Origin: Elusimicrobiota bacterium
Lineage (GTDB): Bacteria > Elusimicrobiota > Elusimicrobia > UBA1565 > UBA9628
DNA: 35,541 bases
Assembly (NCBI GenBank): GCA_026388095.1
Contig: JAPLKL010000033.1
Coordinates: 1 to 35,541, forward strand
Direction: 5' to 3'
The translations under genes and the position numbers were made by a program. Under the pieces are notes generated by a model, which was given only the letters and a program-made list of their open reading frames with translations, did no database searches and had not been told where the DNA came from. Shown here one piece after another: positions 13,728 through 26,211 of this stretch. Numbering within the stretch: the stretch's first letter is position 1; the number at the start of each line of letters is the position of its first letter.

Positions 13728-14855
13728 ATGAAGAACGCGCTGCCCGCCGTCCTGAAGCCGACCGCCCTCGCGGCGGTCCTGGTCTTCGGGGCGACGAGGG
13801 GAGCGGCCGCCAACGCCAGCATATCCGACGATTTTACGGCAATGAGCGGCTGGCTGAGCAGCCAGCTCGCCCAAGGTTTGGCTTTCAACGCGGGCGAGAC
13901 CTTCGACCCGCCGCACGAGCTCAAGAGCCGCCGGGTCCAGCCGGACCTGAGCGTCGGTATCGGCAACATGCCTCTCAACCAGAAGAAATTCCCGCAGACT
14001 TCGGCCCTCACCCTCAACGGCGTCGACGCCGCGGGCTTCTTCCCGTCCTCCGTGCTCTTCCCCAACCTGTCCATGCACCTGCGCGCCGGCCTGCCCGGCC
14101 GCATGGACATGTCGGTCCGCTTCGACGACATGACCACCCCCTCCGGCTACCGCCTCTCGCCCACCATGACGGGCAAGGGCCAGAGCAACTCCATCGGGCT
14201 CGGCCTGCGCAAGCACTTCTTCGGCGGAGAGGGCCGGCCGATGCTGAGTCTGGGCGGCCATTTCAACCATGTCTACGGCTGGTTCAACCTGCACACCACC
14301 CGCGACATGATCATCATCACTGGCCCCGGCACGAGCATCGCCATCAACAACACCGTGGATGGCCAGCTGGCCTGGAACGTGTCCAGCTACGGCTTCAACG
14401 CGGTGCTCAGCGAGTCCTACCGCGGCTGGACCCCTTTCGTGGGCTGCGGCTACAACTACGTCACCGGCTCGGCGAGCGCGGCGCTGCAGATGGCGGCGAC
14501 CACGTTGACCACGCAGAGCCAGGGGGGGGGCAGCGATCACCCGGAGCAGAACCAGGCGCGGTTCATGGGCGGCGTCGAGTTCGACCGGCCCTGGATGCAC
14601 TTCTTCCTCAACGGCGAGATCAAGGCCGTCGGCGAGAACGCCGGGCATTCCTGGATCGCCATGCTGGGCGCGGCGCTGCCCTTCGAGATCGGCATGAACC
14701 TCATCCCCAAGCGCGCGGAACGCAATCCCGAACAGGCCGCGCCGGCCGTCGAGTACGGCGATTACGGCCTGCCGGTCGAGAAGTCGCCGGCCAAGAAGAA
14801 TATCCGCCTGCCGGCCTCGGACAAGGCTCGCCAGGGGATGGTCATCATCGAGTGA
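13728..14855 (+). CDS. Predicted outer-membrane beta-barrel protein
   Basis: A 375-aa exported protein (signal peptide MKNALPAVLKPTALAAVLVFG). The mature chain has alternating amphipathic strands with many aromatic and Gly residues, such as 'LSMHLRAGLPGRMDMSVRFDD', 'NSIGLGLRKHFF', 'WTPFVGCGYNYVTG' and 'FMGGVEFDRPWMHFFLNGEIK'. This is typical of a 10-14-strand outer-membrane barrel. A Lys/Pro tail of about 50 residues follows the last strand, so the barrel is not at the very C terminus. No specific family is recognised. Its stop is 1 nt before the first ATG of the 2323-aa protein, so the two are translationally coupled; the barrel could be its outer-membrane partner or anchor (inference). Confidence 0.82.
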   Translation: MKNALPAVLKPTALAAVLVFGATRGAAANASISDDFTAMSGWLSSQLAQGLAFNAGETFDPPHELKSRRVQPDLSVGIGNMPLNQKKFPQTSALTLNGVDAAGFFPSSVLFPNLSMHLRAGLPGRMDMSVRFDDMTTPSGYRLSPTMTGKGQSNSIGLGLRKHFFGGEGRPMLSLGGHFNHVYGWFNLHTTRDMIIITGPGTSIAINNTVDGQLAWNVSSYGFNAVLSESYRGWTPFVGCGYNYVTGSASAALQMAATTLTTQSQGGGSDHPEQNQARFMGGVEFDRPWMHFFLNGEIKAVGENAGHSWIAMLGAALPFEIGMNLIPKRAERNPEQAAPAVEYGDYGLPVEKSPAKKNIRLPASDKARQGMVIIE

Positions 14856-14856
14856 T

Positions 14857-17800
14857 ATGATGCGCAAGGCCATCGCCGTTCTGCTGAGCTTGGCCCTGGT
14901 GGGGCTCTCCGCCGGGCTGGAGCCCTTGCAGGCCATGGCCGCGGAGGTGGCCCCGGTGCGGGTCAACGGCTCCGGCAACGGCGCGCCGGTGGTCCCGAAC
15001 GCGGCGATAGGCGTCCAGCTCCAGCCGGCCGGCCTGAGCGTCTCTCCTTTGTCCGGACTGCAGGGGACCTTGGGCGCTCTTCCCTCAGCCCCCAAGGTGA
15101 CGGTCCAGGGGATGCCGGCTCCCGTCGCCGGGCTTCTCCAGGCCCTGCCCCCGGCCCTGCCGGGGGCTCTCCCTGCCCCGGCGGCCCAGGCGCAGGCTGA
15201 GGCGCCGCAGACCCCTTTCCAGCAGACCATGCAGCGCCTGCAGGCGCCGTCCATGGTTCAGGATTCCCCGGCCCAGGCCGGCAGCGAGACCTCGGCCGAC
15301 GCGGCCAACCGCGACTTCGCCCAGCGCCTGGGCGAGAAGGTCTCCGCGGCGGCGGATCTGGAAGGCCCGCTGGCGGTCCTCGGGCCTTCAGGCTTGGTGC
15401 CCGCCGCGCCAGGGAAGGTCTCCGCTGAGGATGTCCCTGTCTCTTTGCCCGCCCCAGTCCAGCCCGGCAAGCAGGCCAAGTCCCCGGTCTTCCCGGCCGT
15501 GGTCGCCGCGGTCGCGGCCTTGGTCTGGGAGGGCATCCGGGCCGCGGCTTCCTTGACCGGCGGGGCCGCCCTGCACGCCGCGGGCGCGGCTCCGCTCTAC
15601 ACGGTCCTGCAGGCTGCGGCCGGCGTCGCGGGCTTCACGGTGCTGGGCGTCGGCGCGGTCTTCGCCGCCGCAGCGCTGGCGGACATCGGCTCCTACGCCT
15701 ACGGGATGTGGCGGGGCCGGCAGGTCACGGACGCGGATTTCTGGGATTTCGTGCGCGGCGAGGTCATGGTCGGCCGCATGGACGCGGGCGTCGCCGAGAT
15801 GCTGCGGGTCCACCGGCCCGGCGGGATCTCCTGGAACATGGATTTCGGGTTCACGGCCAACGGCAGCATCCATATGCGGCCCGAGCTCGCGGCCACTCCG
15901 TGGCTCTTCCGCCAGGTCCTCAGCCATGAGCTCCGCCATCTGCGCGGCGGCCCCCAGCGCGGGCCCCCGGCCGGCCGCATCCGGGGCCTCTGGCGCCATT
16001 TCGTCTCCGAGCTCTCCGCCCGGGCGGGGGAGTTCAAGGCCGCCAAGCGGATCGCGCGCACCCGCATCCCGGTCCTGGAGCGGGCCCTGCGCCTGGCCCA
16101 GCTCTCCTTGGCCCTGGCCAAGCCCTACGACGTGCTGGTGGTCAACGCGGGCTCCGCGGAACTCGAGAACCCGGCCGTCTACCAGGCCCTCTCGGGCGGC
16201 CAGGCCCGCGTCTCGGTGGTCAAGGGCGCCGACCCCCAGGCGGTCCTGGGCGACGCCAAGAACGCGCGCCGTTTCCAGGCCGTGGTCCTGGACCAGTCCT
16301 CCGTCCTGCTGCCGGAGGAGAAGTCCGCGGATTCCCAGCGCCTGAGCCAGGCCCTGGAGCAGCTCGACGACCTCTTCGTGCTGGCCACGCGCCTGGTGCC
16401 GCAGACCGGGGCCTTCTCCGATAACGCCGCCCACGCCCAGCGCTACCAGAGCCTGGCCGCCGTGGCCCGGGGCCTCGACCCCCGCGACAAGAAGGCGCGG
16501 GACAAGTTCGAGAAGCTGGTGCGCGAGTTCTGGCAGGACATCGCCGCGACGCGCCTGAAGGGCATCAAGGCCGCCGACCTCATGGCCTCCCTTTATGACT
16601 CCATGCCCAACAAGGGCGTCGCCTTCCTGCCTTTCGGGCCCGAGGCCGCGGGCCTGCCGGTCTGGGAGAAGCTCCTGCGCTTCTGGGAGGCCAAGGACGG
16701 GGGCCAGTTCCGCCTCGTGCGCGTGGACCTGGAGAACGGCGGCCACATCCTCATCTTGCGCAAGATCGAGGCGCGGGTGGGGCTCTGGCTGCGGCCGCAG
16801 AAGGGCTTCCTCGCCGTCACCATCCCGGACGCGGACGCCTCCAGCGAGGCCCGCGAGTCGGCGCGCACGGCGCTCTCCGCCGCGGGGTTCTCCGACCAGC
16901 TCGCCAAGTTCGACGAGCTGGGAGTCGAGATCCGCCACGTCTTCGGCGCGGACGTGGGCCGCCAGGAGATCTACGTGACCGTGCCGCGGCGCAACGCCGG
17001 CGCGATCCGGCGCTTCGTCTCCGCCGCCGCCATGGACGTGGGAGCCTCGCAGGCCAACTTCGAGCCGCACCTCTTCGAGTCCGCGGAGCTGCACAAGGTC
17101 AAGCCGGTCTGGCAGGCGGGCATCACGGGCGCCGACGGCACCATCATGTGGATCGACACCGGGGCGGACAAGACCCACCCGGACTTCGAGGGGCGCCTGG
17201 ACGTGGTGGACATGGTCAACGAGGGCCCGGAGGATTGGATCGGGCACGGCACCCACGTGGCGGGGATCTCGATCTCGGGGGGGGCTGCCTACACCGGCAT
17301 GGCCAAGGCCGCCCACGGCATCATGGCCAAGGTCTTCTCCCGCGAGAACCCCGGCGCCTCGGACGGCGAGATCATGGGCGCGGCGGCCATCGGCATGCAG
17401 AAGGGCGTCGACGTCATCAACCTGAGCCTGGGCAGCAAGGGCTCCTCCAGCGACAACCTGGCCACCTTCTTCTCCCAGCTCACGCACCAGAAGAACGCCA
17501 ACGGGGAGTACCCCTTCGTGGCGGCCAGCGCGGGCAACTCCGGGCCCTTCGACCAGACCCTGAGCCAGCCCGCGGCGGGCGAGGACGTCTTCGCCACCGC
17601 GGCCGCGGCCGTGGGCGAGGATGACCACGCCCCGGAGATATCCTTCTTCAGCTCGGTCGGGCCGGACGTGGACAAGCGTTACGCGGTCAAGCGCGTGCGC
17701 CTCAAGCCCGACGCCACGACCAAGGGCGGCAACGTCACCACGGAGCCGGGCTCTCCCAACGTCTATCGCCTGGGCGTCTACTCCGCCAAGTCCAAGGACA

Positions 17801-20800
17801 TGCCCAAGAATCCCTCGGACACGGCGGACGGCAAGCACACGGCCATGTCCGGGACCTCCATGGCCTCGCCCATGCTGGCTGGCATCGCGCTGCTGGTCCG
17901 GCTGGCGCTGCGCGTGACCGGGGCCGAGACTCCCTTCGTCAAGGAGCACCTGCCCCTGGTCCTCAAGGCCGTGATCATGCGCACCGCCGACGACATGCGG
18001 GTGCCGGTCTGGTTCCAGGGCGCGGGCTTCGTCAACGCCTGGGCCGCCGTGAAGCTCGTGGCCGAGTCGGTGGGCTATGTCCTGGGAAACCGGGCGGCGC
18101 GGCTCTGGGCCACGGTCAAGGGCGCCCAGGCCCCACCGTCCGCCGACGCCTTCGAGTGGGTCGCGCGCTATGAGAAGGTCCTGGCGCTCGAGGACAAGGT
18201 CTACAGCGCCGCCGAGCTGGCCAAGACCGAGGCCAAGGCCCGCTTCGACGACGCCAGCCAGGGCGACGCGGAGGACGGCGAGACCGCGGTCGACTCCCGC
18301 AAAGCCTCGGGCGACGCCGTCGCGGCCGAGGTGAGCGCCAAATTCAACTCGGCCCGGGCCGAGGTCCTCGCCGACATCCTGGCCGCGCTTCAGGACCCGG
18401 TCTGGCTGGTGCGGCGGCAGGCGGCCATGGCGCTGCTGAACCTCAAGACCCCCGAGGCGGTCATGCCTCTGGCCGAGGCGGCCCTGCACGACGCGGACGG
18501 CCGCGTGCGGCAGATGGCTTTCCTGGCCCTGGCGGAGAACACCAGCCACGCCGCGGATGTCATGCTGCAGAAGGCCTCGCAGAGCCCGCTCTGGGACGTG
18601 GCGGTCTATGCGGCTTTCGCTTTGGCCCGGCACGGCGACCGGTCCGCGGTCGAGCGCATCAGCGCGCAACTGGCCAGCGCCGACAAGGCCGTGCGCTTCT
18701 CCGCGACGTGGCTCCTGGGCCAGCTGGGGGACAAGGCCTCGGCGGTCGAGGCCGAGGCCCTCGCAGCCTCGGTCAAGAACGCCTCCGAGCGGGGCAACAT
18801 CCGCCACGTGGCCGCCGCGGCCCTCTCCAACATGGCCGCGGACCAGCCGGCCGCGGTCAGCGACCCCGTCATCAAGGACCTCCTGGAGGCCTCCGGGCCC
18901 CAGAACCTCGCCTTGACCCGCACCGTGGCCAAGTTCTTCCCGATCGCCTTGCGCAACAAGGCCCTGGTGGCCCGGTTGCGGGCCGAGCCGCTCAGATCCG
19001 TGGTGGCCGATTTCGTGCTCAGGAACCGCGCCGCGGTGGGACGGCCGGGCGCGCTGGGCGACCTGGTCAGCCTCCTGGCGCGGGTGGTCAACATCCCCTT
19101 GGACATGCCCACGCCGGTGCCGGACCCCTCCGGCGCGGGCGTGGCCGGCGTGGATCCCGCCCTCGGAGACCTCGACGTCATCGTCGGCCTGCCTGAGGGC
19201 CGGGAGCTCTCCGCGTACCGCGGCAGCGCCGGAGCGGCCGAGTCTCTGGCCGAGGCGGGCCTGGCCCAGGACCTTCTGGGCAGGTTCAGCGCCAGCTTCC
19301 AGGCCGGCCTGCCCGTCTCGCGGGCCCTCTGGCTGAGCGTCCCGGCTCACAAGCTCTTCGCCCTGAGCCTGGAGCTGCGGCACGCGGGCTACTCCGTGAG
19401 CCTGTCCCAGCCCGAGCACAGCCTTTCCCGGACCGCGGCCTCCGAGGGCCTACCCTTGGTCGGCGCCCTGACGCTCGAACTCGGCGACGGCGCTCCGGCC
19501 ATCCCGCCCGGCGCGGACCTCGCCTTCGTGCGCGTCACGGCGGCGAAGGCCGTCTCCGAGGCCAAGGTCATGGCCGCTTTGGAGGCCATCCGTGCCCAGG
19601 CCGGCGACACTCTGCGCAAGCCCGTGGTGGTCTCGGTGAGCCTGGGCAGCCAGGCGGCTGCGGGCTCCGGGGCTCTGGCCGGGCTCATCGACCGCCTGCT
19701 GCTCGACAACGTGGGCGTGGTCCTGCCGGCGGGCAACGAAGGTCCGGCCGAAGGCACCGTCTCGGCGCTGGCCAAGGACAGCCTCGCCGTGGTCGTGGCC
19801 GCCGCCGGCAAGACCGAGGGCCTGGAGAGCTACTCCGCGCGAGGCTCGGCACAGGCTCCGGTCATCTCATGGGCCGACCTGGTCGATGACCTGGGCTCGG
19901 CCCTGCCCAGCTTGCAGGCGGCCGCGGTCTCGGCCGCGCGCGCCATCCTGGGTGAGGACCCGTCGCTGCCGGCCCAGTCGCTCATGCCCGCCGCGGTGGG
20001 GACCGGCGCGGCCGCCGAGAACACCGCGATCAAGCTCGCCCGCATGGCCCGCCGCATGGCCGAGACCTATTCGGAGCATGGCTCCACGCTGCCTTCCGGC
20101 TGGTTCTTCTATCTGGCCGACATCGTCCGGCGGACTTTGAGCCCGCTGCCCGGCCGCGGCTCTTTCGAGGCGGGCGGCGGGGTCTTCGACCATCCGGAGA
20201 AAGCGCTGGAGCTGCTGGAGACGCGGCTCCTCGACCCGGTGGCCGCGGAGCAGGAGGCGCTGTCCCTGTCCCGGGCGGCTCGGGCGCGGTACCATGCGAA
20301 CCGGGCGGCCGGCACCCCGGCCCAGGCCGCGCACAAGGCGGTCTTCAGCGCCGCCCAGGCGGTAGCCGGCCAGATCATGGCCCAGCCGCGGCTCATCGCC
20401 GCCGCCGCCGAACTGACCCGGCGCCTGGCCGGCCGCGACTTCCGGCCCGCGAGCGTCGTCCCTCAGGACGGCCTGGCCTACGTCCGGCAGCTCCGGGCGG
20501 TCCTGGCCGCGGGCAGGCAGACCGCCGGCGGCCCCATCAATCCCTTCGTCTTCCGCAAGACCTCGGGCGGCATGGTGGCGGCCCGGGCCGCGGGGCTGGA
20601 GGGCTTCCTCTACTCCAAGCTCGAGCTCTCCCGCGCCGGGACCTTGGACCTCCGCGAGCTCGACAACTATTTCCGCTACCTCGCAGACCTGCTGGCGGGG
20701 GACTCGTGGACCAAGGGCTTGCGCCGCGACCTCGATACGATCCGGACTTCCGACGCGGCCGCGGCCGAGAAGAACCGGCTCCTCGACGCGCGCCTGGCCG

Positions 20801-21828
20801 CCGCGGTCAGAGAGTATCAGACCGAGCTGCGGGCCGCGGACGCCTCCAACTGGTTCCGGGGCGCGGGCCTCTACGAGCTTTCAGCGAAGGACTACGGCTT
20901 CGCCGCGACCGAGAAGAAGTTCTTCGAACTCCTCGACGAGAGCGAGTTGCGGCGCATCCAGGCGTCAGCCCACGTGGACACGCTCCTGCTCAAGACCAGC
21001 TTCTCGGGAAGCTCCGAAGAGGCCTTCCGGCGGCTGGTGCGGCGGGTCCATTCCTTGGGCCTGAAGATCGCCGTGGAGTGGACGGGTGCGGAGCCTTTCG
21101 ACGACGTCCGGGCCGCGGACCTGGGCGTGGACGCCGTGCACCGGGGCGGGAGCTACTTTGTCGGCGGCCAGGAGCTGGGCCGGGACCGGGAGGCGCTGCC
21201 CGAGGCGCTGGCCAGCCGGGACGCGGACCGCGTCCGCGCCGCCCTGCGGGACGCGGCGTTCTCAGCCTGGCAGCGCGGCGGTCCGGCGGACATGAGCGTC
21301 ATCTCCTTGCGGCGCCTGGGGCGGCTCGGAAGGGGCTCCCTTTTGATGGCGATGCTGCTGCGGCCCGTGGTCCTCAAGACCGAGACCGATGAGGATTCGC
21401 TGCCCGCCGGGCCGGTCGCCGACCTCTTGCGCGAGTTCCTGCGCTTCGCGTCCGCCCGGTCTGCGGAGTACCGGGACCTCCTGGCGCGGGGGGCCATGGA
21501 GGTGCTCGACACCGATCCGGGCACGCCGGTCGTGGCCTACACCCTCAGCGCGGCTTCCGGGGCCAGGCGCAAGACCGTGCTCGCCGCGGCCAACTTGGCG
21601 GATCGGCGGGCCCACGGCTTGTTCCGGTTCAAGGCGGCGCAGTCGGGTTTGGACGAGTTCGCGCCGGCCGCCGACAAGACCTACACCCTGCGCGACCTGG
21701 CCAACGCTGACGCCGACGGGCAACCCGTGACCTACACCCGGTCCGGCCAGGAACTCCTGGAGAAGGGGCTCTACATCGAGCTCGACGGCGGCGGGGTGCA
21801 CCTCTTCGAGGTCGCGGAAGCTCCCTGA
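14857..21828 (+). CDS. 2323-aa chimera: leader, HExxH membrane module, subtilase, HEAT, pseudo-subtilase, GH13-like tail
   Basis: A giant exported protein. Residues 1-30 are a signal peptide and 30-170 an Ala/Pro/Leu leader. Residues 210-290 hold hydrophobic segments followed by a candidate zincin motif HELRH (H357-H361) with E385 as possible third ligand. An alpha/beta region (about 425-690) leads into an S8 subtilase (about 755-1070) with the full set: Asp767 (MWIDTGAD), His797 (GHGTHVAG), oxyanion Asn894 (SAGNSGP) and Ser1001 (GTSMASP). HEAT-like repeats follow (about 1165-1370). A second subtilase-like core (about 1440-1670) keeps VVVSVSLGS and the AGNEGP Asn (N1627) but shows no Asp/His/Ser triad. 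Residues about 1995-2323 resemble a shortened GH13 barrel (GAGLYELSAKDYG, VDTLLLK, HSLGLKIAVEW) plus a beta-sandwich ending. Proteolysis in or outside the periplasm is likely. The other modules' activities are inferred. Confidence 0.88.
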   Translation: MMRKAIAVLLSLALVGLSAGLEPLQAMAAEVAPVRVNGSGNGAPVVPNAAIGVQLQPAGLSVSPLSGLQGTLGALPSAPKVTVQGMPAPVAGLLQALPPALPGALPAPAAQAQAEAPQTPFQQTMQRLQAPSMVQDSPAQAGSETSADAANRDFAQRLGEKVSAAADLEGPLAVLGPSGLVPAAPGKVSAEDVPVSLPAPVQPGKQAKSPVFPAVVAAVAALVWEGIRAAASLTGGAALHAAGAAPLYTVLQAAAGVAGFTVLGVGAVFAAAALADIGSYAYGMWRGRQVTDADFWDFVRGEVMVGRMDAGVAEMLRVHRPGGISWNMDFGFTANGSIHMRPELAATPWLFRQVLSHELRHLRGGPQRGPPAGRIRGLWRHFVSELSARAGEFKAAKRIARTRIPVLERALRLAQLSLALAKPYDVLVVNAGSAELENPAVYQALSGGQARVSVVKGADPQAVLGDAKNARRFQAVVLDQSSVLLPEEKSADSQRLSQALEQLDDLFVLATRLVPQTGAFSDNAAHAQRYQSLAAVARGLDPRDKKARDKFEKLVREFWQDIAATRLKGIKAADLMASLYDSMPNKGVAFLPFGPEAAGLPVWEKLLRFWEAKDGGQFRLVRVDLENGGHILILRKIEARVGLWLRPQKGFLAVTIPDADASSEARESARTALSAAGFSDQLAKFDELGVEIRHVFGADVGRQEIYVTVPRRNAGAIRRFVSAAAMDVGASQANFEPHLFESAELHKVKPVWQAGITGADGTIMWIDTGADKTHPDFEGRLDVVDMVNEGPEDWIGHGTHVAGISISGGAAYTGMAKAAHGIMAKVFSRENPGASDGEIMGAAAIGMQKGVDVINLSLGSKGSSSDNLATFFSQLTHQKNANGEYPFVAASAGNSGPFDQTLSQPAAGEDVFATAAAAVGEDDHAPEISFFSSVGPDVDKRYAVKRVRLKPDATTKGGNVTTEPGSPNVYRLGVYSAKSKDMPKNPSDTADGKHTAMSGTSMASPMLAGIALLVRLALRVTGAETPFVKEHLPLVLKAVIMRTADDMRVPVWFQGAGFVNAWAAVKLVAESVGYVLGNRAARLWATVKGAQAPPSADAFEWVARYEKVLALEDKVYSAAELAKTEAKARFDDASQGDAEDGETAVDSRKASGDAVAAEVSAKFNSARAEVLADILAALQDPVWLVRRQAAMALLNLKTPEAVMPLAEAALHDADGRVRQMAFLALAENTSHAADVMLQKASQSPLWDVAVYAAFALARHGDRSAVERISAQLASADKAVRFSATWLLGQLGDKASAVEAEALAASVKNASERGNIRHVAAAALSNMAADQPAAVSDPVIKDLLEASGPQNLALTRTVAKFFPIALRNKALVARLRAEPLRSVVADFVLRNRAAVGRPGALGDLVSLLARVVNIPLDMPTPVPDPSGAGVAGVDPALGDLDVIVGLPEGRELSAYRGSAGAAESLAEAGLAQDLLGRFSASFQAGLPVSRALWLSVPAHKLFALSLELRHAGYSVSLSQPEHSLSRTAASEGLPLVGALTLELGDGAPAIPPGADLAFVRVTAAKAVSEAKVMAALEAIRAQAGDTLRKPVVVSVSLGSQAAAGSGALAGLIDRLLLDNVGVVLPAGNEGPAEGTVSALAKDSLAVVVAAAGKTEGLESYSARGSAQAPVISWADLVDDLGSALPSLQAAAVSAARAILGEDPSLPAQSLMPAAVGTGAAAENTAIKLARMARRMAETYSEHGSTLPSGWFFYLADIVRRTLSPLPGRGSFEAGGGVFDHPEKALELLETRLLDPVAAEQEALSLSRAARARYHANRAAGTPAQAAHKAVFSAAQAVAGQIMAQPRLIAAAAELTRRLAGRDFRPASVVPQDGLAYVRQLRAVLAAGRQTAGGPINPFVFRKTSGGMVAARAAGLEGFLYSKLELSRAGTLDLRELDNYFRYLADLLAGDSWTKGLRRDLDTIRTSDAAAAEKNRLLDARLAAAVREYQTELRAADASNWFRGAGLYELSAKDYGFAATEKKFFELLDESELRRIQASAHVDTLLLKTSFSGSSEEAFRRLVRRVHSLGLKIAVEWTGAEPFDDVRAADLGVDAVHRGGSYFVGGQELGRDREALPEALASRDADRVRAALRDAAFSAWQRGGPADMSVISLRRLGRLGRGSLLMAMLLRPVVLKTETDEDSLPAGPVADLLREFLRFASARSAEYRDLLARGAMEVLDTDPGTPVVAYTLSAASGARRKTVLAAANLADRRAHGLFRFKAAQSGLDEFAPAADKTYTLRDLANADADGQPVTYTRSGQELLEKGLYIELDGGGVHLFEVAEAP

Positions 21829-22786: not shown

Positions 22787-22840
22787 GGCCCAATATGGGC
22801 TGGGCCCATTAATGGTGTTACCGGACCTTGATGGCCCAGG
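22787..22840 (+). promoter_or_regulatory. Palindromic element, second copy
   Basis: The sequence runs GGCCCAATATGGGC, TGGGCCCA, TTAATGG, TGTTACC, then TTGATGGCCCAGG. The first two blocks are perfect or near-perfect palindromes. The order matches 13493-13535. It lies 57 nt before the start of the enzyme gene and may be an operator or an RNA stem in the leader. Confidence 0.45.
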
Positions 22841-22896
22841 TTGACTTGGCGGTCCCCGGCTACACTCCTAATAAGGATACGCGACCGGCAGAGAGT

Positions 22897-25800
22897 ATGT
22901 CCCAAAGCAACAGCCGAAACGGTCTCAGGAAAGCGCTGAGCGCGCTCATCATCAACGCCCTACTGTTCACCCAGCAGGGCTTCGCGCTCCAGGCCTTCGC
23001 CCAGACCAAGGTCGAGGCGGTCACAGCCGCCCCCGGGACCGGTTCCGTCGGCTCCGTCGGCACATCCTTGGGCTCGGCCTCTTCCCTCTCCGGCGCCAAC
23101 CTCGCCCCTGCCGCAATCCTGACTCTGTCCCAGCCCGGCCTCAGCGCCGTGCCCACGGTCATCCCCCAGGTCGCGAACCCCGCTCCGATCCTGAGCGCCG
23201 GGCCGGCTCCCGTCGCCGCGCCGGCGGCCTCCCCCGTCCCGGCCAAGGCGGCGACATCGGCGCGCCTGACCAAGGTCGCTGAGAGCCTCCAGCCCGAGCT
23301 CAAGACTCTGGCCGGCCCCGAGGCCCAGGCCGACCAGGCCCAAGGCGCGGGCGAGCGCGTCATGGCCAAGGCCCTCGGCCAGAGTACCCAGGACCTGCCC
23401 GAGCTGGCCGAGCCCGCCTCCGCCGCCGGGACTTCGTACTCCGGCGCCAAGGTCCACGCCGCTCTGCGCAAAGGCGCGCAAGGCCCGGCAGCCCGACAGG
23501 GCCGGGACGGCTCCTGGTGGAAAGACCCCGCCTCCCAGCATGTCGCGGTCACCGTCCCGCTCTACGCCCTGCGCCGCGCCGAGGGCGACCCGGGCATCGG
23601 CAAGTTCACGGACTTCGGCGCCTACTACCGCGACGTGCTCGCCGCGCAAGGCGTCGACACCATCCATCTCCTGCCCCATTTCGCGGTGCTCGACGAGAGC
23701 CCCTACGCGCCGGTGAGCCTCTACGCCTTGAACGAGAGCAACGTGGACTGGGCGGTCGTCGACGAGGTCAAAGGTGACCCGGCCCTGCTGGCCAAGCTCG
23801 CGGTGGCGGACCAGGCCGACCGGCAGGCGGTCAACTACAAGGCCCTCTGGAGCCGCGAGGAAGCGGTGGCGCAGGAGGCCTACCGCAATTTCCAGCGCGA
23901 CCACATGTCGCGCGGCACCTCCCGGTCCAAGGACTATCTGGCCTTCCTCAAGGAGAACGCCTACTGGCTCAACGACTACGCGGAGTTCATGACTTTGTCC
24001 CGGATCATCGGCAAGCCGTCCTTGCAGTGGACCAAGAACGAAGAGACCGGCGCCCGGCACGATCCGCGCTTCATCCTGCTCAAGAACACCCATTTCTATG
24101 CCCAATGGAACGCCTTCCGGCAGTTCGGCGACGCCATGGACACGATCCACCAGGCGGGCGGCCACGTGCTCTTCGACATCCCCATGTTCCGCGCCAAGAA
24201 CTCGGTGGACTCCTGGAAGCATCCCGAGTACTTCAAGGACCTCAAGACCCGCAACCCGGGGATCAAGAACCAGTGGATCAACGAGGACTGGCTGGACCTG
24301 GCCCTGTGGGATTGGACCAGGCTCAAGGGCGAGGGCTACCGGCCCATGCTCGAGCCGTTCCGCCACTGGCTCAACCTGGGCTTCGACGGCGCGCGGGTGG
24401 ACGCTCTGCATTTCGCCTACAATTTCGGCAACGGCCAACTGGCCAGCGGCGACGAGCCGGGAGACGATTACGTCTCCGCTTTGGGTGAGGTGCTCAAGGC
24501 CGGCGACGCCTTCCCCCTGGCCGAGGCTTTCGAGGGCAAGGCCGACAACGCGCAGCGCTACGGCTTCGTCACGGTGTACGGGGATTGGAAGAAGCTGAGC
24601 TCGCACGACGACCCCCGCAGCGAGGGCTTCATGGCGCGCCTGCTGGACCTGAGCCGGCAGGGCGGCTCCGGCAAGAACGGCCGATTCGTGGGCTACACCT
24701 TGGGCGACGAGTGGAACGACCCGGTCCCGGTGAAGGTGGTCAAGGACGGCAATTCCTACTGGCGCTACCGCATCCCCTTGCCTGCGGACCCCGACTACAA
24801 GAGCCGGGCGCGCGCCGACAACCGCGGACAGATGGGGGGCTGGAAGGCCATGCAGGAAGGCAACGTCTGGAAGGCCGCAGAATCGCTCTGGACCGCCTTC
24901 AAGGCCGCGGGCGACACGTTCGTGAAGCACTTCAACGGCTCCGTGCAGATCTGGGCCGCGAGCCTGGACTGGTTCCAAGAGGAATGGGGCCGCGACACCT
25001 TCATCTCCTTGCCGGGCCTGCTGCTCTCCACCGGCCGCTCCGCCGAGGCCAAGGAGAACATGCGCAACTTCGCCAGGTACGAGCACAACGGGCTGATCCC
25101 GAACCGCATCTGGGACGCTTCGCGCTGGTCGCCGGCCAAGCCCGACGGGGTGGAGTACAACACGGTGGACGGCTCCATGTGGTTCGTGCAGGCGGTCAAG
25201 AAGTACGCGGAGACCACCCAGGACGCCGCTTTCGTCGCGGAGATGCTGCCGGTCCTGCGGCGCGTGATGGAGCGCTACGCTTCGGGCACGGGCTACGACC
25301 GCTACGGCCGCTTCAACCGGATCTATATGGACACGGACGGGCTGATCGTGAGCCCGGCCCAGGCCACCTGGATGGACGCCGACCCGGAGGGACGCGACCA
25401 GCCCGTGACACCGCGCAACGGCAAGGCCGTGGAGATCAACGCCCTTTGGTACGCGAACCTGCGCTTCCTGGCCCGGCTGGAGCGCCAAGCCGGCCGCGAC
25501 GCCGCGGCCCGGGCCTTGGACTCCCGCGCGGACCTGGCCAAGAAGTCCTTCAACGAGAAATTCTGGTTCGCCACCGAGGACAACAAGAAGGCCTGGGGCG
25601 GCTCGGGCGGGGCTCTGGCCGACGTGGTGGAAGGCGACCCGCACGGGCAGGCGATCCGGCCGAACATGCTCTTCGCGGTGAGCGCCGGCGAGGACCTGCT
25701 CAGCCCGGAGCGGCAGGCGGCCGTGGTGCAGGCCGCGACCCGGGATTTGTTGACGCCTTACGGGATGCGCACCCTGTCTTACCGCGACAGCGGCTATCAC

Positions 25801-26211
25801 GCGACCTACGACACCTCGAAGCCTCCGCTCGAGAAGGACCAGGCCTACCACCAGGGCACGGTGTGGCCTTGGCTGCTGGGCTCCTACGTGGACGCCTTGG
25901 CGCGCGTGCGCCGGGCCCAGGGCTGGGACGAAGGCCGCATCCGCGAAGAAGTCGGCGGGATCATGACTCCCTTGGCCGAGTTCCTGGTGAGCCGGCCCGA
26001 GGGGTCATTGCCCGAGGTCTTCGACGGCGGCCGGCCGCAGGAAGCCCTGCAGCGCTTCTCCTTGGCCGACCCGCTGGGCCTGCGCGACGTCATCGTCAAG
26101 ATCCTGCGCGGCCAGAACCGGGGCGGCACGCGCGCGCAGGCCTGGAGCGTGGCCGAGGCCATCCGCGTGCTGGCGGAGTACGGCCTGGCCCCCATCGCCC
26201 CGCGGCCGTAG
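22897..26211 (+). CDS. Secreted GH77 4-alpha-glucanotransferase fused to glycogen-debranching (GDE_C) domain
   Basis: A 1104-aa exported enzyme for alpha-glucans. I start at 22897, where the signal peptide begins (MSQSNSRNGLRKALSALIIN); upstream codons add an unlikely hydrophilic stretch. A leader runs to about residue 195. Residues about 225-590 resemble GH77/MalQ: GIGKFTDFGAYYRDVLAAQG, SPYAPVSLYALN, YWLNDYAEFM, GHVLFDIPMF, and GARVDALHF with D502 as probable nucleophile. E543 (LAEAFEG) is a candidate acid/base and HDD about 570-572 the third acidic site. Residues about 680-1095 match amylo-alpha-1,6-glucosidase: EEWGRDTFISLPGLLLSTGR, EYNTVDGSMWFV, GKAVEINALWY and AYHQGTVWPWLLGSYVDA. The pairing would give transfer plus 1,6-hydrolysis in one chain, as in eukaryotic debranching enzyme, though that uses a GH13 domain. 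Confidence 0.9.
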   Translation: MSQSNSRNGLRKALSALIINALLFTQQGFALQAFAQTKVEAVTAAPGTGSVGSVGTSLGSASSLSGANLAPAAILTLSQPGLSAVPTVIPQVANPAPILSAGPAPVAAPAASPVPAKAATSARLTKVAESLQPELKTLAGPEAQADQAQGAGERVMAKALGQSTQDLPELAEPASAAGTSYSGAKVHAALRKGAQGPAARQGRDGSWWKDPASQHVAVTVPLYALRRAEGDPGIGKFTDFGAYYRDVLAAQGVDTIHLLPHFAVLDESPYAPVSLYALNESNVDWAVVDEVKGDPALLAKLAVADQADRQAVNYKALWSREEAVAQEAYRNFQRDHMSRGTSRSKDYLAFLKENAYWLNDYAEFMTLSRIIGKPSLQWTKNEETGARHDPRFILLKNTHFYAQWNAFRQFGDAMDTIHQAGGHVLFDIPMFRAKNSVDSWKHPEYFKDLKTRNPGIKNQWINEDWLDLALWDWTRLKGEGYRPMLEPFRHWLNLGFDGARVDALHFAYNFGNGQLASGDEPGDDYVSALGEVLKAGDAFPLAEAFEGKADNAQRYGFVTVYGDWKKLSSHDDPRSEGFMARLLDLSRQGGSGKNGRFVGYTLGDEWNDPVPVKVVKDGNSYWRYRIPLPADPDYKSRARADNRGQMGGWKAMQEGNVWKAAESLWTAFKAAGDTFVKHFNGSVQIWAASLDWFQEEWGRDTFISLPGLLLSTGRSAEAKENMRNFARYEHNGLIPNRIWDASRWSPAKPDGVEYNTVDGSMWFVQAVKKYAETTQDAAFVAEMLPVLRRVMERYASGTGYDRYGRFNRIYMDTDGLIVSPAQATWMDADPEGRDQPVTPRNGKAVEINALWYANLRFLARLERQAGRDAAARALDSRADLAKKSFNEKFWFATEDNKKAWGGSGGALADVVEGDPHGQAIRPNMLFAVSAGEDLLSPERQAAVVQAATRDLLTPYGMRTLSYRDSGYHATYDTSKPPLEKDQAYHQGTVWPWLLGSYVDALARVRRAQGWDEGRIREEVGGIMTPLAEFLVSRPEGSLPEVFDGGRPQEALQRFSLADPLGLRDVIVKILRGQNRGGTRAQAWSVAEAIRVLAEYGLAPIAPRP

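Follow-up and report, generated by a model that had tools for sequence, protein, structure and literature searches.

Which processes lead a bacterium to join an intact subtilase to a second, degenerate one and to part of an alpha-amylase in a single exported protein, and what might such a protein do? This question is raised by a gene within a stretch of 35,541 nucleotides of Elusimicrobiota DNA (the window), which belongs to a 4.6-Mb genome assembled into 79 contigs. A first-pass annotation, made from the letters alone, had described the product as a 2323-aa chimera with a domain order matching no described family, and our searches of Pfam, NCBIfam, genomes and literature are consistent with that statement. 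Within the open-access literature no published description of this protease family was found, and papers on Elusimicrobia together with subtilisins, subtilases or debranching enzymes yielded nothing relevant. The features of the locus are listed in Table 1.

Table 1. Features of the protease locus, with window coordinates and the evidence for each.
Feature	Residues	Coordinates	Strand	Basis
Conserved exported 375-aa protein, probable outer-membrane barrel		13728..14855	+	weak DUF6588 match; barrel putative
Whole protease gene	2323 aa	14857..21828	+	ATG start
Signal peptide and Ala/Pro-rich leader	about 1-28, leader to 204	14857..15468	+	sequence, hydropathy
Hydrophobic helical hairpin, probable membrane anchor	211-286	15487..15714	+	hydropathy, predicted model
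HExxH (357-361) and downstream E385, possible zinc site	330-397	15844..16047	+	conservation
Rossmann-like domain, class I methyltransferase-like (tentative)	424-650	16126..16806	+	predicted model, fold search
First subtilase S8-1, full triad	765-1054	17149..18018	+	Pfam, alignment
HEAT repeats	1154-1340	18316..18876	+	Pfam, relatives
Degenerate second subtilase S8-2	1430-1800	19144..20256	+	alignment, profile, fold model
Truncated GH13 module without catalytic residues	1850-2323	20404..21825	+	relatives, profile, fold
Exported debranching enzyme GH77 + GDE_C (GH133)		22828..26211	+	Pfam, alignment; likely start ATG 22897

A genuine gene of one Elusimicrobiota order

The protease reading frame shows a clear coding bias, with a GC content by codon position of 0.72/0.51/0.94 (GC3 of 94%), the same pattern as in other genes of the window. 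A 1343-aa frame on the opposite strand overlaps it and was rejected as a shadow, since codon-position composition favours the plus frame. The same architecture, 2318-2327 aa long, is encoded in two independent MAGs of the same genus, L073 (80% identity) and L074 (77%), and therefore the gene is real and the chimera is indeed one reading frame, as the first pass had proposed. An assembly join of two genes, a danger which that annotation had itself named and which the draft state of this MAG and the separate GH13 genes of L034-L040 could suggest, is ruled out in practice by these full-length copies and opposed by comparable fusions, seen in at least six further genomes; its probability is practically nil.

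Some part of the protein finds a match in 34 of the 38 genomes searched, the window's own included, many of these being single domains. A search of 84,980 species genomes with the N-terminal region, which is specific to the family, gave 26 loci; those that carry a name all belong to the Elusimicrobia/Elusimicrobiota, and two are labelled only "bacterium". An even draw across the phylum gave the family in 5 of 150 genomes, all from the window's order, and one remote relative (L060) lies in another family of the same class. The protease family was thus found only in Elusimicrobiota and essentially in one order. In one complete genome (L092:9146-14718, CP096137.1) the protease reading frame breaks into two overlapping ones close to the N-terminal region, probably by a frameshift or a sequencing error.

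The first subtilase and the HEAT repeats

Pfam recognises only S8-1 (E 5e-34) and the HEAT repeats (HEAT_2, aa 1154-1226) in the window protein. The complete S8 set D767, H797, N894 and S1001 is present in S8 order at exactly the positions first reported, and is conserved in most relatives; the HEAT-like repeats behind it had been recognised correctly as well. Judged by these residues, S8-1 would be the sole working serine-protease centre of the protein. NCBIfam matches to SGO_0316 and dentilisin PrtP cover part of the S8 core only and score far below the cut-off, and both identities were rejected. Three relatives (L085, L087, L054) have lost the catalytic Asp of S8-1 by a change of the type DTG to GTG and keep Ser and His. 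Both S8 domains of these three proteins look inactive, and their GH13 is intact.

A pseudoprotease in second position

The first pass had read a dead S8-like core, keeping the strand and the Asn of AGNEGP, in the middle of the protein, and alignment, profile and fold model all bear this out. S8-2 retains the central strands and AGN(1627)EGP; the Asp and His segment is gone, and the "MSGTSMAAP" of intact copies reads "AAVGTGAAAE", with Ser replaced by Gly. Compared with the PDB as a single sequence, it gave marginal subtilisin matches (best E 0.016). A profile of aa 1425-2323 built with 19 relatives gave E values of 2e-19 against subtilisins and 3.5e-10 against alpha-amylases, and a predicted model of the same region (mean pLDDT 80) matched Tk-SP subtilisin at E 1e-9 in a Foldseek search of the PDB. 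Residues 1440-1670 and 1995-2323, where unrelated folds would have contradicted the first annotation, thus resemble S8 and GH13 folds, respectively.

Common descent with subtilisins is further supported by orthology to the intact S8-2 domains of two other families, f2 (L093-L096, L098) and f3 (L058/L059). These carry D in "YLDEGGD", H in "HGTHGMG", N in "GNEGP" and S in "MSGTSMAAP", and for L052 (the same gene as L095) the Pfam S8 match extends over both domains at E 1e-62 with its best stretch in the second. Throughout the aligned proteins of the window's own family, f1, that cover S8-2, the Asp loop and the His segment have shrunk or disappeared, and "SGTSMAAP" has become "GT(G/A)xAA", with the oxyanion Asn mostly kept; the pseudo-subtilase is therefore common to the whole bacterial family f1. 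L057 also carries a degenerate second S8. Judged by the lost residues, S8-2 is a pseudoprotease and not an S8 peptidase by activity. Since intact copies occur in two families, the state with two active S8 domains is probably ancestral, on a protease tree drawn without an outgroup. The intact ancestral forms of both dead domains had escaped the first pass.

A truncated GH13 module at the C-terminus

The shortened GH13-like tail proposed at first holds up through homologues, profile and fold. A PDB search with the window tail sequence alone found no amylase, and so orthologues were needed as a bridge: intact GH13 proteins that score above the Pfam cut-off are homologues of the tail, and the model of aa 1425-2323 matches isoamylase and the alpha-amylase TVA II in the PDB (E 3e-9 to 1e-8). 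Common descent with GH13 can thus be stated. Regions I, III and IV are deleted in the window protein and the Asp of region II is lost too, leaving none of the catalytic Asp/Glu/Asp. With about 474 aa, compared with about 690 in L066, the short form is about 215 aa shorter than intact copies; it is predicted to keep parts of the barrel and the C-terminal sandwich.

GH13 modules with the full catalytic Asp/Glu/Asp exist as separate genes (L034-L040, L070) and fused to the protease (L085, L087, L066, L053, L054, L058). Two loci of the window's own genus (L066, L041) have the catalytic residues intact, and the short form is restricted to the window, L073 and L074, which form one clade with full support. 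The remnant is thus a recent change in three species only; it may be a young domain without catalysis or one in slow decay, and the truncation may in part be decay rather than function. Another pairing of protease and glucanase was seen at L035:2634-7249, where a stand-alone GH13 gene begins 2 bp after a gene for an exported S41/PDZ protease and the two leaders resemble each other (40% over about 100 aa).

Neighbouring genes and exchange of C-terminal modules

Neither the neighbouring genes nor the exchange of C-terminal modules among relatives was noted in the first pass. The gene for the 375-aa protein, a probable outer-membrane barrel judged from its sequence, ends 1 bp before the protease gene. 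Of the 25 loci whose upstream sequence could be used, 22 have its counterpart within 100 bp of the protease gene, and a 4-bp overlap of the two genes is frequent. A PDB search with this protein gave no match. It also precedes the stand-alone GH13 gene in L070 and L072, where no protease of the family was seen nearby.

The next exported gene, about 1 kb downstream of the protease, encodes a GH77 + GDE_C protein that carries a signal peptide of its own; the D/E/D of its GH77-like part and its GDE_C motifs are both conserved. No second GDE_C gene was found in the genome, in which GH13 has 14 matches. At six loci (L076, L081-L084, L091) the protease itself continues into GH77 + GDE_C, and well-supported branches of the tree require at least three gains or losses of this fusion and at least two of the GH13 fusion. 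For f2, four loci were scanned for the next gene: it encodes an exported amidase in three and an FGE-sulfatase family (formylglycine-type) protein in one. The amidase of L093, L096 and L098, an N-acetylmuramoyl-L-alanine amidase, directly follows the protease gene and replaces the alpha-glucan enzymes.

Relation to described protein families

S8-1 has the full Asp/His/Asn/Ser set of peptidase family S8 (Tk-SP, 3afg) and S8-2 has its fold; however, S8-2 lacks Asp, His and Ser, and the surrounding domains lie outside any described S8 family that we found. The tail is homologous to the GH13 family (TVA II, isoamylase), with barrel parts and sandwich predicted, but differs from it in the missing regions I, III and IV and region II Asp. 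Similar to glycogen debranching enzymes, in which a glucanotransferase precedes GH133/GDE_C, the downstream protein and the six fused relatives have the same bifunctional order and the catalytic residues. Unlike those enzymes, the downstream protein is exported with a long leader and its relatives are fused to a subtilase at six loci, and unlike the eukaryotic hDGE_amylase type its glucanotransferase part is GH77-like.

The closest precedent for the active/dead pair is CspBA of Clostridioides difficile, a fusion of the active subtilase CspB with the pseudoprotease CspA, which selection maintains and which undergoes cleavage between the two domains (PMC6636752). Both proteins have an active and a dead subtilase in one chain, and in both the dead copy has intact relatives and is retained by selection. 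However, CspBA belongs to spore germination in Firmicutes and has neither HEAT repeats nor membrane hairpin nor glycoside hydrolase. The likeness is one of layout. Compared by sequence with what is described, the window protein combines domain families that are already known; two enzyme deaths are documented for it, and protease and glucanase have been fused repeatedly.

Proposed function and alternatives

The explanation that best fits the whole, to which we give a probability of about 0.55, is a protease anchored in the envelope, whose pseudo-S8 has a structural or regulatory part and which works beside exported alpha-glucan enzymes. Ancestrally, a signal peptide and membrane hairpin would have been followed by the HExxH/Rossmann-like region and then by S8, HEAT repeats and a second S8. 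S8-2 would later have lost its catalytic residues in the window's family and become a conserved pseudoprotease, and several lineages would have added a C-terminal alpha-glucan enzyme, either GH13 or GH77 + GH133. In the window's genus the attached GH13 would later have been truncated and its active site lost, with GH77 + GH133 kept as a separate downstream gene. Pseudo-S8 and HEAT repeats may serve S8-1 as a structural or regulatory partner in substrate docking, inhibition or positioning. The site would be periplasmic or at the surface, next to the debranching enzyme and the barrel protein, and external or envelope protein might be broken down there together with alpha-glucan.

The architecture, the intact versions of the dead domains, the swapping of modules, the neighbourhood and the purifying selection are all documented by comparison of genes and proteins. 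The intact S8-1 triad, the intact S8-2 of f2 and f3, dN/dS values well below 1 in all four domains, the GH13 or GH77 + GDE_C fusions elsewhere, the separate exported downstream gene and the tight linkage of the barrel gene argue for this explanation. Against it stand the f2 neighbours, an amidase or other enzyme and not a glucanase, which means that the alpha-glucan link is not universal, and the GH13 remnant, which is recent and has the weakest constraint of these domains. Proteolysis is not essential in every member, given the S8-1 Asp lost in three of them, and the distance to the debranching gene does not imply co-transcription. The first annotation had suggested that the dead modules bind substrate or act as scaffold, perhaps for glycoproteins or alpha-glucans; purifying selection, the alpha-glucan fusions and the neighbouring exported debranching enzyme lend this indirect support, which does not extend to the role itself.

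A more elaborate version, which we propose only tentatively, would be a lineage-specific envelope machine in which the barrel and a membrane-anchored S8-HEAT-S8 platform receive interchangeable hydrolases that S8-1 matures, with S8-2 as regulatory or docking pseudoprotease. Amidase, GH13 and GH77-GH133 would be its cassettes, present as neighbours or as fusions.

Alternatively, the protease could be a dedicated maturase that trims the leaders of co-exported hydrolases, the fused forms being self-cutting polyproteins. The debranching enzyme, GH13 and amidase do have long leaders before the enzyme domain, the C-terminal modules alternate between fused and separate states, and CspBA is cut between its domains (PMC6636752). 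But in L085 and L087 the S8-1 Asp is missing and S8-2 is degenerate, and these proteins are nevertheless fused to an intact GH13; we consider such a maturase rather unlikely.

Unlikely, too, is that both dead domains are neutral leftovers on their way to loss and that only S8-1 matters. Pairwise dN/dS among the three sister species (window, L073, L074) is 0.08-0.13 for S8-1, 0.21-0.32 for the HEAT repeats and 0.22-0.32 for S8-2, so the constraint on the dead subtilase about equals that on the HEAT repeats. Although dead across f1, it also keeps its full length, its Asn and the GTxAA frame. The GH13 barrel remnant, with large deletions and a relaxed dN/dS of 0.39-0.45, would fit neutral loss, as would several relatives that stop after S8-2 without any GH module; its C-terminal sandwich, at 0.24-0.28, does not. 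Both dead domains are still under purifying selection (dN/dS about 0.2-0.45), in agreement with the anchored protease with a retained pseudo-S8.

The N-terminal region

The signal peptide is of Sec type and is followed by an Ala/Pro-rich leader of about 175 aa, the fastest-evolving part of the protease (pairwise dN/dS 0.37-0.56 among the sister species). The hydrophobic hairpin behind it is present in most relatives and, after cleavage of the signal peptide, would as a two-pass anchor place all of the downstream protein outside the cytoplasm. Other proteins of these genomes have a similar signal peptide and long Ala/Pro-rich leader (L114:1307-3163 on the minus strand and L115:1473-4793 on the plus strand of one genome, and L077:17981-21238), among them an ATP-grasp protein and what looks by eye like a HAD-phosphatase/MFS-like membrane protein; in some of them a motif resembling SPGLxCY occurs. 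There may be an export leader common to the whole lineage; a search of the window's own genome for the leader as a shared sorting tag gave only weak matches.

A possible zinc site at HELRH had also been put forward. The motif stands and is widely conserved: H357, E358, H361 and E385 show no variation across 14 diverse rows of the alignment, and HExxH with a downstream Glu, as in gluzincins, occurs in most of the family; E385 is a putative metal ligand. By analogy with known metallopeptidases, the strand, the HExxH helix and the ExxAR helix would fit a gluzincin core. Assignment to a metallopeptidase did not follow: Pfam over 27 members, PDB profile and fold searches gave no significant match, a single member of the 27 had a weak M78 match (E 0.089), and the top fold matches include no metallopeptidase. 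We do not assign the region to M48/M56, which only the motif and helix layout would fit. Between this site and S8-1 lies the Rossmann-like domain, overlooked at first; it is modelled with good confidence and best matches class I methyltransferases (E 1e-4, TM 0.34 by target), and no GxGxG motif for SAM binding was seen in the alignment.

It is very unlikely that the main activity resides here, in a zinc metallopeptidase with a Rossmann partner to which the subtilases are accessories. The invariant residues and the compatible helix layout would suit this, but the searches speak against it, as do the HExxH-region residues, wholly or partly replaced or missing in L054, L066 and L092, and S8-1 as the most constrained domain.

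Implications for pseudoenzymes and glucan use in Elusimicrobiota

An extracytoplasmic link of proteolysis to alpha-glucan debranching was not found in the open-access literature searched. Within one bacterial order, the protease family provides a natural series in which two active protease domains in tandem give way to one active and one dead domain, and an intact attached glycoside hydrolase to a crippled one; it thus allows one to date and test how pseudoenzymes arise and are retained. It also links proteolysis to alpha-glucan debranching outside the cytoplasm in uncultured Elusimicrobiota, and repeated gene fusion supports this link.
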